Assembly (NCBI GenBank): GCA_012839115.1
Contig: DUNX01000031.1
Span: 1 to 44,742, forward strand
DNA length: 44,742 nt
Reading direction: 5' to 3'
From: Bacillota bacterium
GTDB taxonomy: Bacteria > Bacillota > UBA4882 > UBA10575
Made by a program: the position numbers and the translations under genes. Positions 1,506 through 6,570 of this stretch are shown piece by piece (positions within the stretch are counted from its first letter, which is position 1; each line of letters starts with the position of its first letter). Under the pieces are notes generated by a model that saw only the letters and a program-made list of their open reading frames with translations, made no database searches and was not told where the DNA came from.

Positions 1506-2717
1506 ATGGGAGTTTTTCGCTTTTCTGGAAGAACCCGCCGTTTTCTTCTTTTCTTCTTTTTGAGCCTAGCTTTGGTGGCAGCCGGGACTTCAAAAAACCG
1601 TAAAGAAATACCGGCCGGATCGGGTTACCGGCGGGTGGAAGGATATCCTCCCCTGATTTACCTTCCTGATTATACCGGAGGGCCGGCAGTTTATGCCCGG
1701 GCCGCTATTTTGGTGGAAGAGGTCAGCGGGATGATCCTGTATGCCAAAAACGAGCACCAGCGACGCGCTCCGGCCAGTACAACGAAGATCCTTACGGCCA
1801 TTGTCGCCTTGGAAAAAGGGAACCTGGAAGATGTGGTTACGGTCAGCCGGCGGGCCGCCCGGACAGGAGGTTCGGCCTTGTGGCTGAAAACAGGCGACCG
1901 GCTGACCCTCAAGGAATTACTGGAAGGGCTCATGCTCTGCTCGGGTAATGATGCGGGTGTTGCCGTGGCGGAACATATAGCCGGGTCGGAACGGAATTTT
2001 GCACGCATGATGAACAGGAAGGCAAAAGAACTCGGAGCGCTCAACAGTAATTTTCAAAATCCCCACGGGTTGCGGGCGCCTGCCCATTATACCACCGCCT
2101 ATGATTTGGCCCGCCTTACCTGTTATGCTCTGCGTAATCCGGAATTTTCCCGGCTGGTGTCAGCCAGGGAAGAGGCGATCCAGTGGTATCAAGGGGAAAA
2201 GACAAGAAAGGTCCGGAATACCAACAGGCTGCTTTGGTCATTTGCCGGAGCGGACGGGGTAAAGACCGGTACCACTGCTGAAGCAGGATACTGTCTGGTC
2301 GCTTCGGCTACCCGGGACGGCCGCCGCTTTATCTCCGTGGTCCTGAACAGTCCGGACCGTTGGGGGGAGTCGGCACGTCTTCTGGAGTACGGGTTTGATA
2401 ATTTTACCCTGAAGCTGCTGGCCACCCCGGAAGAGGCTGTGGGGAAAATAGAGACGGCAGGCGGATACCCCCGCGTAGTGGCGGTATACCCCCGACGGCC
2501 GTTGATGGTGGTAATCCCCAAGGGGGAGGAGGCATATGGGGAAAAAAAAATCAGTTTGCGCCGGGATAAACTCAGACTGCCGGTAAAACCGGGAACGGTC
2601 GCCGGGGAGGTAGCCTTTTTTTTCCGCGGGGAAAAAGTATGCGGGGTGGATCTGATCGTCCGGGAACGGGTGGATAAGGATTGGTGGTGGCGAAGGTTGT
2701 GGAGTGGCCGCGAATGA
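1506..2717 (+). CDS. dacF: D-alanyl-D-alanine carboxypeptidase, peptidase S11 (DacF/PBP5 type)
   Basis: This enzyme removes the terminal D-Ala from peptidoglycan stem peptides outside the membrane. All three penicillin-binding motifs are present: SxxK as STTK (Ser91 nucleophile, Lys94), SGN at 146-148 and KTG at 253-255. An N-terminal hydrophobic stretch at about 12-27 is the export signal. A C-terminal beta domain (about 300-390) is typical of S11 enzymes. At 403 residues the length is normal. ATG 1506 follows aaaggag by about 12 bases. The stop overlaps the start of the next gene (ATGA at 2714-2717), so the two are co-translated. In Bacillus dacF is expressed in the forespore, but the sequence does not show whether this copy is the DacF or the DacA/B paralogue. 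Confidence 0.9.
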   Translation: MGVFRFSGRTRRFLLFFFLSLALVAAGTSKNRKEIPAGSGYRRVEGYPPLIYLPDYTGGPAVYARAAILVEEVSGMILYAKNEHQRRAPASTTKILTAIVALEKGNLEDVVTVSRRAARTGGSALWLKTGDRLTLKELLEGLMLCSGNDAGVAVAEHIAGSERNFARMMNRKAKELGALNSNFQNPHGLRAPAHYTTAYDLARLTCYALRNPEFSRLVSAREEAIQWYQGEKTRKVRNTNRLLWSFAGADGVKTGTTAEAGYCLVASATRDGRRFISVVLNSPDRWGESARLLEYGFDNFTLKLLATPEEAVGKIETAGGYPRVVAVYPRRPLMVVIPKGEEAYGEKKISLRRDKLRLPVKPGTVAGEVAFFFRGEKVCGVDLIVRERVDKDWWWRRLWSGRE

Positions 2718-3880
2718 GTAGGGTCTTTCGGGCGCTTACCGTTGCTGCCATTTATATCGGTACGGTGATCGGCGCAGGGTTTGCTTCCGGACGGGAAATT
2801 TGGCAGTTCTTCTCGCAGTACGGGGTTGCCGGTACTTGGGGCCTGCTTTGCTCCACATTACTCCTGGCGGTTTTAGGGCCCAAGGTCATGGTGTGGGGGC
2901 GGCGCATTAAGGCCTCTTCCTACCAGGATTTCCTCCATAGCCTGGCCGGGAAATGGGCGGGCCGCGGCGGGGACCTGGTGCTCACGGTCTTTCTCCTCTT
3001 TTTACCCGGAATTATGCTGGCCGGCGCCGGCGCGATCACAGTACAACTGGGGGGAAGGTGGGAATGGGGTTGCTGGGGTACGGCCATTCTGGCTGTTATT
3101 ATCCTCAGCCGGCGGCTGGAGGGGATTAAAGGGGTCAACCTGGTATTTATCCCTTTACTCTTTGCGGCCGGGTTGCTCCTTAACCTGAAGACAGCCCCGC
3201 TTTTTTCCGGTACGGCCTTATCAGCGGTACCGGCAGCGACAACGGTGACGACGTTGCCAGTGCTGCCGGTGGTACCGGCGGCGACGGTAGTGCCGGCAGT
3301 ATCCCCACCGCCACCGGCCAAAGGCTACTGGCTCTTGGCCGCTTTACAATACAGCGCCTATAACCTGGTTTTGGCCTTACCGGTTCTGGTAACCCTCCAC
3401 CGCCTGCATGATGAGGCTGTCGTTTTGCGCCGGGGCGGGGTCCTCGGCGGTGTTTCCCTGGGTATTTTGGCTTTTCTTTTTCACCGGGTAATGGCGGTGG
3501 CCGGCGGCGGAAGCGGCGAGCTTCCGCTCTTCATCTTAACCGCAGGCTGGGGCAGATGGTGGCGGTATGGTTACGCCCTGGTTCTCTGGGGGGAACTTTT
3601 TTCCACCTTAATCGCCCATGGTTATGGTCTGGCCACCAGGATCGGGCCGGCGGAAAACCACCGCTTTACCTTGCGTGTTGCCGGTCTGATGGTTTTGGCG
3701 GTCATCATTGGTCAAGTAGGTTTCAGCCGTTTGATTAAGAATCTGTACCCTTTTTTCGGGATGGTCTCCCTTTTTCTCCTCTTACCTCTCTTGTTAAAGC
3801 CTCTCCCGGCAACCCGGGAACCTGGAAAGAGCGGCAGCCGGCGGGCTGCCCGCCCCAGGGCTCGGGGCAGGTTGGGATGA
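2714..3880 (+). CDS. YkvI-family multi-spanning membrane protein
   Basis: The product is a 388-residue integral membrane protein with about ten hydrophobic helices. The first helix carries the motif GTVIGAGFASGREIWQFF, which is typical of the YkvI family, a poorly characterised branch near the APC/LeuT-fold transporters. Its substrate is unknown. The start is ATG 2714, overlapping the stop of the carboxypeptidase gene in ATGA. The open frame extends 11 codons upstream to 2681, but that start has no ribosome binding site. An Ala/Pro/Val/Thr-rich segment (about 3214-3312) between two helices looks like an expanded low-complexity loop. The C-terminus is basic. A factor-independent terminator follows. 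Confidence 0.75.
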   Translation: MSRVFRALTVAAIYIGTVIGAGFASGREIWQFFSQYGVAGTWGLLCSTLLLAVLGPKVMVWGRRIKASSYQDFLHSLAGKWAGRGGDLVLTVFLLFLPGIMLAGAGAITVQLGGRWEWGCWGTAILAVIILSRRLEGIKGVNLVFIPLLFAAGLLLNLKTAPLFSGTALSAVPAATTVTTLPVLPVVPAATVVPAVSPPPPAKGYWLLAALQYSAYNLVLALPVLVTLHRLHDEAVVLRRGGVLGGVSLGILAFLFHRVMAVAGGGSGELPLFILTAGWGRWWRYGYALVLWGELFSTLIAHGYGLATRIGPAENHRFTLRVAGLMVLAVIIGQVGFSRLIKNLYPFFGMVSLFLLLPLLLKPLPATREPGKSGSRRAARPRARGRLG

Positions 3881-3898
3881 AAGAAAATGCCGGAAAAT

Positions 3899-3946
3899 CC
3901 CATATTTTACAACATAATTAGTCGACAAGTAAAATATGGATTTTTT
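3899..3946 (+). terminator. Terminator after the YkvI-type gene
   Basis: The inverted repeat atattttac (3902-3910) and gtaaaatat (3929-3937), extended by C/G pairs, is followed by six T residues at 3941-3946. The loop contains the 0A-box-like sequence of the spoIIE promoter. Confidence 0.7.
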
Positions 3947-3954
3947 GGTATACT
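3922..3954 (+). promoter_or_regulatory. Candidate Spo0A-dependent promoter for spoIIE
   Basis: The -10 TATACT (3949-3954) has a -35-like TCGACA (3922-3927) at a 21-bp spacing. The -35 overlaps GTCGACA, a 6-of-7 match to an inverted 0A box (TTCGACA). An over-long spacer with a 0A box at the -35 is the known architecture of the Spo0A-activated spoIIE and spoIIG promoters in Bacillus. The match is by eye only. Confidence 0.5.
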
Positions 3955-4001
3955 AAAGCTACGGCCGGATCATCTTCTGCTGTAATACTGGTTGCAAATA
4001 T

Positions 4002-4068
4002 AGCTGGATACTATCCATAACTGGACATTATCCTAATCGGACATTATCTATAACTGGATATTATCCAA
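4002..4068. repeat. Four imperfect repeats with GGATA-N-TATCC palindromes in the spoIIE leader
   Basis: Head-to-tail units of 15-18 bp start at about 4002, 4020, 4038 and 4053. The first and last contain the perfect palindromes TGGATAcTATCCA (4005-4017) and TGGATAtTATCCA (4055-4067). The middle units are decayed (GGACATTATCC-like). They lie between the candidate promoter and the coding region and could be operators or RNA structure. Confidence 0.65.
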
Positions 4069-4131
4069 ACTGGAGGGGAGTAAGTTGGGATAGAGGCGGA
4101 AAAGGCTCTGTCCTCGTGGAAAGGCGAGTTC

Positions 4132-6570
4132 ATGCAGGAAAAAAGAGGAACACGCGGGCGCGTGCGGGAAACCGGCCGGAAATGGAAGGGGTGGGGCCGG
4201 TTACTTTTTGGGTTGGCTGTCGGCGCCTCCCTTGGACAGTTGCAGTTGCCGCCGGGGTTTTTCCCTTTTGGGCCTGCTTTTTGCGGGGCTTGGCTAAAAA
4301 ATGGCCTTGGCGGAGGCGCCGTGGTTTTCTTTTTTACCTTCTTTGCGCTCTATTCCTATTCCGGCCTGCCGGGGGAGGAGTTTCCGGGGCGTGTTCTTTT
4401 TTATCTCCCGGTTTTGCTCGGTGTCTATTGCGCCCGGCGGCAAAAGAAGCCCTGGGCTTATCTCTTTGCTTTCCTCCTGCCGGCCGCGGTCCTTCTTTTG
4501 TTCTGGTTTACTCCCGCCGGGTACCGGTTGGCGGTCTTCTTCAATCTCCGGCAAGGGCTTGCGCGCGCGGGAGAAATCTTCCTCCTATATTTCTTGGTTT
4601 ATGTGCTGACACCCGGGACCGGTTTTCTTTTTTCATCCTTGCCAAAACCCGGGAAGGATAATAAAGAAATCCTTCTCTCCCTGGCCGTTCTGGCGGTGTT
4701 GATCTTTTTCTCCTTGGGACAGGCTTTCGACCCCGGTTCCCTGTTGGGGATACCTCTGGCGGCAGATCTGTTTTTTGCCTTTTTTCTCATTTTTTTGGCG
4801 GCAAAAAGGTACGGTACGGGAGGGGGGGCGATTGCCGCTGTTGTCTTTGGTGGTGTAGAGGTCATCTGCGGCAAGAGTATCCCTTTACGGCTTTTTTTCA
4901 TCACCGGCAGCGGTATTGCAGCCGGCCTTGGGTACGACGTTATGAAAAAAAAGTACGGTTTTGCCTTGGGTTTCCTCGTCCATATGGTACTGGCAACCGT
5001 CAGGTGGTGGGATGCCCCGGGTTTAGAAGAGCTTTTGCTGACAGGGACGGCGGCGGCCGTGGTTTTCCTAGCTTGCCCGGGCCGGCTTTGCCGGAAGATA
5101 GAAGAATTCTTGCCGTCACCGGCCGAGGTTACCGGGAATTTCCGGCAGCAAAAACGGTTGAAGGAAGTGGTTGTCGAACGCCTGCAGAGCCTGGCCATAC
5201 TTTTTGAACAAATCGCCGGGGCCTTTACCCGGGAGGAAGGCGGAAAAGAAGATGAAGGGCAACAGGAGATCTATGAGTTCGTTGAGAAAATCTCAGAGCA
5301 AAGATGCAGGTTTTGCCCTTGTTACTCTTCTTGTTGGGGCCAGCTTTTCTACACTACCTACCGGGAGATTTTTGATCTGATCGCTGCTGCGGAGATCACC
5401 GGGATGGCGGATCCGGCACAGATCAAAGGGCGCCTGGCCAAGGAGTGCCCGCAAAAGCAGGAGTTGATCATAGCTATCAATTCCTGGGTAGAGAGGCAAC
5501 AGGCCGAGCATATTTGGAGACGCCGGTATGAAGCGGGACAGGCCTTTCTCTCCGGGCAACTGCGGGAGATCTCCGGGATGATCGCCGGACTTTCCCGTCA
5601 TCTTAAATTAAGCGTTGAATTCCGGGCGGAAATTGAAGGGGAACTGCGGGCGGCCTTCCAAAGAATGAACTTACCGGTAAAAGAGATGATTGTTACCGGG
5701 TTGGAAAAAAACCGGGTGGAAATTTTTCTGGAGAAAAGGGCCTGCAACGGGCAGGAGGAGTGCTGCCGGATAATTGCCCCCTTAATCTCGCAGTTGCTGG
5801 GGAGAAGGTTCACCGTTCACCGGCAAAATTGTCCAGCCGGGGCGGGCGGGGAGTGCGGTTTTTATCTTCTTCCCCGCCGTTACTACAGGATTGAGTCGGC
5901 AGTGGAAAAAATCCCCCGGGACGGTAATACCCTATCCGGAGACAGCCACAGTATTTTGGAGTCGAAAGAAGGGTATGTCTTTGCCATTCTCAGTGACGGT
6001 ATGGGGGCGGGTCCGGGGGCGGCCCGCCAAAGCAGCACCACCATTTCCCTGCTGCAAAAGTTACTCGCAACGGGTCTGGATAAGAATTTCTGCCTGCAAT
6101 TACTGAATTCCCTTTTGATGCTGCGCAGCCCGGAAGAGAATTTTGCCACTTTGGACCTGTTTGTTTTTGACCAGTTTACTGCGGAAACGGAACTGATCAA
6201 AATCGGGGCCGCCCCCACCTATATCAAAAGAGGAAAAGAGGTGAATGTGATTAGCTCTACCTCCCTGCCGGTGGGAATCTTGAATAATGTGGAACCGGAA
6301 TATATCAGGTACGATCTGCGGGAAAACGACTTAGTGGTGATGGTAACCGACGGGGTGACGGATCTTGCGCGCACGGGTACGAATAGCCGGCAAAAGGAGG
6401 ACTGGATTTATAAAATCTTAACACAACTGGACCTTTCCGGGGTTGACTCCCTCTGCCATTATCTGTTGGAAGCGGCCAAGATTGAGGCCGGAGGGAGTGT
6501 GGAAGATGATATGACCATCCTTGTCCTGCAGGTTCTCAAGGAAAATCCGCGGGTGCGGGAGCAGGTTTAA
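4132..6570 (+). CDS. spoIIE: Stage II sporulation protein E, membrane PP2C-type phosphatase
   Basis: SpoIIE dephosphorylates SpoIIAA in the forespore, which releases sigma-F, and it also acts at the polar septum with FtsZ. The 812-residue length is normal. About ten membrane helices fill residues 20-310, a cytoplasmic linker follows, and the PP2C domain covers about 580-805. Its metal-binding motifs are all visible: SGDSHS, LSDGMGAG, TDGVTD and EDDMTIL. ATG 4132 has only a weak upstream aaaggcgag. The strongest Shine-Dalgarno (ggaggggag, 4072-4080) lies 52 bases earlier. The frame stays open back to 4084, but no ATG, GTG or TTG is in frame there. The N-terminus is therefore uncertain by up to 16 codons. 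The gene stands alone with a long leader. Confidence 0.95.
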   Translation: MQEKRGTRGRVRETGRKWKGWGRLLFGLAVGASLGQLQLPPGFFPFGPAFCGAWLKNGLGGGAVVFFFTFFALYSYSGLPGEEFPGRVLFYLPVLLGVYCARRQKKPWAYLFAFLLPAAVLLLFWFTPAGYRLAVFFNLRQGLARAGEIFLLYFLVYVLTPGTGFLFSSLPKPGKDNKEILLSLAVLAVLIFFSLGQAFDPGSLLGIPLAADLFFAFFLIFLAAKRYGTGGGAIAAVVFGGVEVICGKSIPLRLFFITGSGIAAGLGYDVMKKKYGFALGFLVHMVLATVRWWDAPGLEELLLTGTAAAVVFLACPGRLCRKIEEFLPSPAEVTGNFRQQKRLKEVVVERLQSLAILFEQIAGAFTREEGGKEDEGQQEIYEFVEKISEQRCRFCPCYSSCWGQLFYTTYREIFDLIAAAEITGMADPAQIKGRLAKECPQKQELIIAINSWVERQQAEHIWRRRYEAGQAFLSGQLREISGMIAGLSRHLKLSVEFRAEIEGELRAAFQRMNLPVKEMIVTGLEKNRVEIFLEKRACNGQEECCRIIAPLISQLLGRRFTVHRQNCPAGAGGECGFYLLPRRYYRIESAVEKIPRDGNTLSGDSHSILESKEGYVFAILSDGMGAGPGAARQSSTTISLLQKLLATGLDKNFCLQLLNSLLMLRSPEENFATLDLFVFDQFTAETELIKIGAAPTYIKRGKEVNVISSTSLPVGILNNVEPEYIRYDLRENDLVVMVTDGVTDLARTGTNSRQKEDWIYKILTQLDLSGVDSLCHYLLEAAKIEAGGSVEDDMTILVLQVLKENPRVREQV

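Follow-up and report, generated by a model that had tools for sequence, protein, structure and literature searches.

The locus raises the question of whether a short segment upstream of spoIIE is a Spo0A-controlled promoter, whether it also serves the preceding gene as terminator, and how old this type of control is. In Bacillus subtilis, the spoIIE promoter has a 21-bp spacing, with remodelling of the polymerase by Spo0A, and the spoIIG promoter has a spacing of 22 bp; B. subtilis spoIIE is reportedly a Spo0A- and sigma-A-dependent gene, as York et al. (1992, cited in PMC12090719) are said to have described. The window, i.e., the whole stretch of 44,742 nucleotides that was analysed, corresponds to contig C134 in the 2.35-Mb assembly of an uncultured Bacillota lineage.

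Promoter elements and neighbouring genes

The promoter elements stand between two genes of the plus strand. The upstream gene (2681-3880) encodes a membrane protein, YkvI-like by our reading, that gave no match in searches against Pfam and NCBIfam; most family members carry a homologue at this position. The downstream gene (4132-6570) lies in a frame open from 4084. It was matched to NCBIfam TIGR02865 with E 8.9e-127, yet under the curated cut-off, and to Pfam SpoIIE_N and SpoIIE, both above cut-off, and is a genuine spoIIE.

The -35-like hexamer TCGACA (3922-3927, plus strand), the spacer (3928-3948) and TATACT (3949-3954) were read directly, and the 21-bp distance given in the initial annotation is exact. 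The hexamer is overlapped, as had also been proposed, by an inverted 0A box, GTCGACA (3921-3927; minus strand TGTCGAC), that agrees with the consensus TTCGACA/TGTCGAA in six of seven positions. Two further elements were absent from that annotation: an extended -10, TGG-TATACT (3946-3954, plus strand), and a putative degenerate distal 0A-like box, TGCCGGA (3888-3894, plus strand), at offset -34 from the hexamer. The latter belongs to a 10-bp tandem, TGAAAGAAAA/TGCCGGAAAA (3878-3897), as its second element, and fits the one-mismatch rule given below. Both boxes of the window are thus imperfect, the proximal one at 6/7 and the distal one with G at position 6, and the distal box is degenerate throughout the class.

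Taken with the comparisons below, these elements allow the segment 3888-3954 to be read, with high confidence, as a Spo0A-activated, housekeeping-sigma promoter of spoIIE. The main-sigma RNA polymerase would recognise the extended -10, and the -35-like hexamer, about 4 bp too distant for ordinary contact, would double as the inverted 0A box. Phosphorylated Spo0A would bind this proximal box with the help of a further Spo0A unit seated some 33 bp upstream, on the distal direct element, and the bound Spo0A would position or remodel the polymerase, turning spoIIE on at entry into sporulation. Binding by Spo0A, its dependence on phosphorylation, the identity of the sigma factor and the step of activation are what we infer by analogy with B. 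subtilis; sequence conservation alone cannot name the bound protein. The extended -10 could permit some Spo0A-independent transcription.

The presumed spoIIE leader carries a 17-bp tandem repeat (4.5 copies, ATAACTGGACATTATCC; 4000-4074, plus strand) between promoter and ribosome site, and in the sister species this position is occupied by repeats whose unit is related to it but distinct. The repeat was considered as a genome-wide element and rejected (nine places in its own genome with up to three mismatches versus four for the reversed control); its two best genome matches, with 0 and 1 mismatch, both lie in the spoIIE leader. Within 4072-4165, the good ribosome site GGAGGGGAG is followed by an in-frame GTT, replaced by ATT in locus L034, and by no in-frame ATG, GTG or TTG before 4132 (putative spoIIE start). 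In each of the three genus members, a TTG one frame off runs for two codons before it meets a stop.

Comparison of spoIIE upstream regions

Within the window, the perfect match to TCGACA-N21-TATAMT is unique, and four matches with up to two mismatches were counted against 2.2 expected. 0A-like 7-mers with one mismatch numbered 471 against 454 expected and are therefore uninformative by themselves. Such single-window statistics cannot settle the question of chance, for which comparison is decisive. Of 16 family genomes, 15 contain the fuller pattern TCGACA-N18-TGN-TATAMT, 14 of them once; the matches total 16, against none for the reversed-pattern control. The two matches of G008 represent one locus on overlapping contig ends (97% identical over 359 bp), and in G013, the sole family genome without a match, spoIIE is cut by a contig end. 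Thirteen family matches fall at upstream regions of spoIIE that had been read directly; at the remaining two loci (G004 and G012), a SpoIIE-like frame follows downstream by our reading.

The phylum-wide comparison used the regions upstream of spoIIE in 132 sequences representing 78 families: the window, 48 earlier loci, 24 loci and 59 fetched stretches. The sample represents part of the SpoIIE-bearing genomes, a SpoIIE match having been obtained in 162/199 and 57/61 genomes of two surveys; three loci were dropped, L043 because it lies at a contig edge, L052 because tblastn gave no match, and L263, which was left off the table. Spacings of 10 to 35 were scored with GACA fixed and up to one mismatch to TATAAT. 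By this rule, and with uneven sampling, 94 of the 132 sequences, belonging to 53 of the 78 families, carry the form GACA-21-TATAAT. Any other spacing within the range occurred in at most 12 sequences, 22 bp being the runner-up, and in 40 dinucleotide shuffles the 21-bp form was found in 0.57 sequences on average (maximum 3). The distal box was sought as TGNCGAA with one mismatch allowed and C4 and G5 fixed. Of the 94 sequences, 50, covering 36 of the 53 families, have a direct 0A box starting 32-34 bp upstream of the hexamer, as against 0-3 sequences in five displaced control windows. Addition of the 22-bp forms and the both-box forms raised the totals to 110/132 sequences and 63/78 families, and no accepted variant was seen in 22/132 sequences (15 families).

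Among the 46 named genomes listed (of 80 loci), 39 have exactly 21 bp; this count omits loci whose titles give no more than 'Bacillota', 'Firmicutes' or 'Clostridia bacterium', along with a few others. The strict 21-bp form is carried by all 20 Paenibacillus and by 19 of the other 26, including Geosporobacter, Caloramator, Thermincola, Thermobrachium, Lucifera, Fuchsiella, Gorillibacterium and more, and both boxes are present in 27 of the 46. A distribution confined mostly to the neighbourhood of the window's own class had been obtained with a strict rule (27 of 110 loci at 21 bp). It was discarded when relaxation of the first two hexamer positions revealed that the apparent restriction came from the rule and not from biology. 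Outside the class, a TTTC-like element was also observed about 10 bp past the proximal box (offset +9 to +13 after the hexamer), as was a preference for C at -6; together they suggest tandem half-sites there too.

A geometry shared across most families sampled is most simply accounted for by an ancestral origin and a functionally fixed 21 bp. Spo0A-type control of spoIIE is thus very probably ancestral, and the earlier suggestion that direct control is old gains support from the counts of sequences and families at 21 bp. These data also bear on a plain sigma-A promoter that would work from its extended -10 without Spo0A control, the 0A-like sequence at 21 bp being there by chance. TGG-TATACT is indeed a good extended -10, with a TGN that never varies within the class; in most sampled families, however, both the 21-bp spacing and the distal box are fixed, and the full pattern is single-copy per genome, which makes such a promoter highly unlikely.

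The Spo0A-activated promoter proposed here resembles that of B. subtilis spoIIE in its gene, sigma-A-type -10, 21-bp spacing and 0A box over the -35, and differs from it in the extended -10 and the degenerate distal element. With B. subtilis spoIIG it would have in common a long spacer and a sigma-A promoter activated by Spo0A, but spoIIGA of the class is without the architecture. The likeness to the Bacillus Spo0A/sigma-A promoter type that had been put forward for spoIIE is supported. spoIIGA was tried as a second carrier in the lineage and rejected, the 21-bp architecture being found upstream of it at 1 of 29 loci. That one case is in G029 (loci L010 and L137), a genome without the 21-bp form at spoIIE. 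Within the genus, the spoIIGA upstream regions (L158, L157 and L160) share conserved AAAAAGGAAT... and TATATAATTGAA, without the 0A/21-bp form.

In Clostridioides difficile, the DNA-binding domain of Spo0A is described as binding spoIIE DNA in vitro (PMC3485338), and spoIIE is called a direct Spo0A target (PMC13395437). The likeness lies in this direct targeting and the difference in an additional regulation of C. difficile spoIIE by a CamA methylation site; the passages cited state no spacing. Taken together, the evidence from B. subtilis and C. difficile means that Spo0A control of spoIIE was already known in two classes. What the comparison adds is the geometry itself, including the distal box, as a property common to most families sampled; a literature search of CC-licensed papers returned no prior statement of a phylum-wide 21-bp spacing. 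Regulatory DNA can rarely be aligned across a phylum, and here a promoter geometry (distal 0A box, about 33 bp, -35/0A box, 21 bp, -10) is readable in most sampled families of spore-forming Bacillota. The age of direct Spo0A control becomes a countable trait, and a simple pattern is provided for locating spoIIE promoters in uncultured genomes. It also marks lineages in which the switch may be rewired, such as the window's own class with its two Spo0A proteins.

The predicted hairpin around the proximal box

The 0A-like site had been assigned to a terminator loop belonging to the upstream gene, with one short segment serving both signals. Its position in a loop was reproduced: a hairpin is predicted at 3887-3951 (plus strand), with an 18-nt loop (3911-3928) containing the box and a U-run at 3941-3946, and could be a weak terminator of the upstream gene. 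Its folding energy is -24.3 kcal/mol (z -3.84), and none of 200 shuffles was equally stable. A stable AU-rich stem followed by a U-run is present, and the short loop (3-8 nt) of a terminator is absent. The hairpin is not among the 12 terminator-like sites returned by a standard terminator scan of the window, because its 18-nt loop is too long.

The double role was not upheld in the relatives. In the same fold test applied to genus members, -25.1 kcal/mol was obtained for the window, -15.2 for L033 and -9.2 for L034, and no equivalent hairpin formed around the box in the other family members folded, though box and -10 are kept there. The stop of the upstream ORF lies inside or adjoins the promoter in eight family members, at +29, +17, +11, +6, -7 or -14 relative to the box; the stop positions for L033, L034 and L036 were set aside as artefacts of in-frame stops early in the match. 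Because the stem weakens or is missing in relatives and upstream stops fall in or beside the promoter, the conserved design does not include a terminator around the box, and the hairpin was rejected as a conserved terminator. Comparison of this region in relatives, as had been recommended, thus returned the box, spacing and -10 as kept and the hairpin as not kept. On this comparison, the hairpin is a local feature outside the conserved device, although it may stop part of the transcription that reads through from the upstream gene.

If selection had placed the Spo0A site in the loop of an intrinsic terminator, this would explain why a hairpin that is predicted to be stable, and is followed by a U-run, has the box in its loop, with a weaker version in L033. 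We regard this as unlikely, since the box, the spacer length and the -10 persist in L033 and L034 as the stem decays, other folded family members have no equivalent, the upstream ORF enters the promoter in several of them, and an 18-nt loop on an AU-rich stem makes a poor terminator. The two hairpin arms also contain the parts of a different candidate promoter, TTTACA (3906)-N18-TAAAAT (3930-3935), matched by a standard scan with 10 of 12 consensus positions and normal spacing. That this is the working promoter is hardly credible, given its location in the arms and the absence of its TAAAAT part from L034 and from the other family members shown.

The class variant and its two Spo0A proteins

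In the class to which the window belongs (f1-f5), the 21-bp form of the Spo0A-type promoter is present at 23 of 24 loci, with L024 at 22 bp. C at hexamer position 2 occurs in 23/23 class members versus 22/71 sequences outside the class, and TGN before the -10 in 23/23 versus 8/71; neither feature played a part in the selection. In place of TGTCGAA, the distal element of the class is a degenerate 10-bp tandem of GAAA-like sites. Repeat identity within the class is 0.57 at a shift of 10 and 0.50 at 11, compared with 0.24-0.37 at other shifts and with 0.35 at a shift of 10 outside the class; in f1 the tandem partly overlaps upstream coding sequence, so that the signal there need not be purely regulatory. 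Judged by its sequence, the class promoter is a variant of the known spoIIE type with an invariant box C, an extended -10 and changed distal repeats.

Two Spo0A proteins are encoded in the window's own genome, at L179:2735-3541 (G000:C122) and L178:3608-4414 (G000:C124). One lies beside a spoIVB-like gene and has the helix RVERAMRFAIE, its recognition helix being normal-looking (RVERAMR versus RVERAIR in PDB 1lq1). The other lies near FHA, PP2C and PrkC-like kinase genes (by our reading) and has the helix SGVESAIRHTIA; in its SGVESAIRHTIE, two arginines of the canonical SRVERAIRHAIE are replaced. With matches of E below 1e-50 taken, the SGVESAIRHTI helix type was found in 27 of 29 class genomes and the RVER-[IM]RFAIE type in 28 of 29, the gaps being G018 and G028, and G026, whose second match falls outside the sample. 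No prior statement of a duplicated Spo0A was found in the search of CC-licensed papers.

As a speculative and rather improbable extension, the spoIVB-linked Spo0A (RVER-[AS]-MRFAIE) would read the proximal TCGACA and the second (SGVESAIRHTIE) the distal GAAA tandem, forming a two-input AND gate on the ancestral promoter. The class being a single lineage, the link between paralog and distal element counts as one event and is no proof by itself. A third Spo0A was observed in G006.
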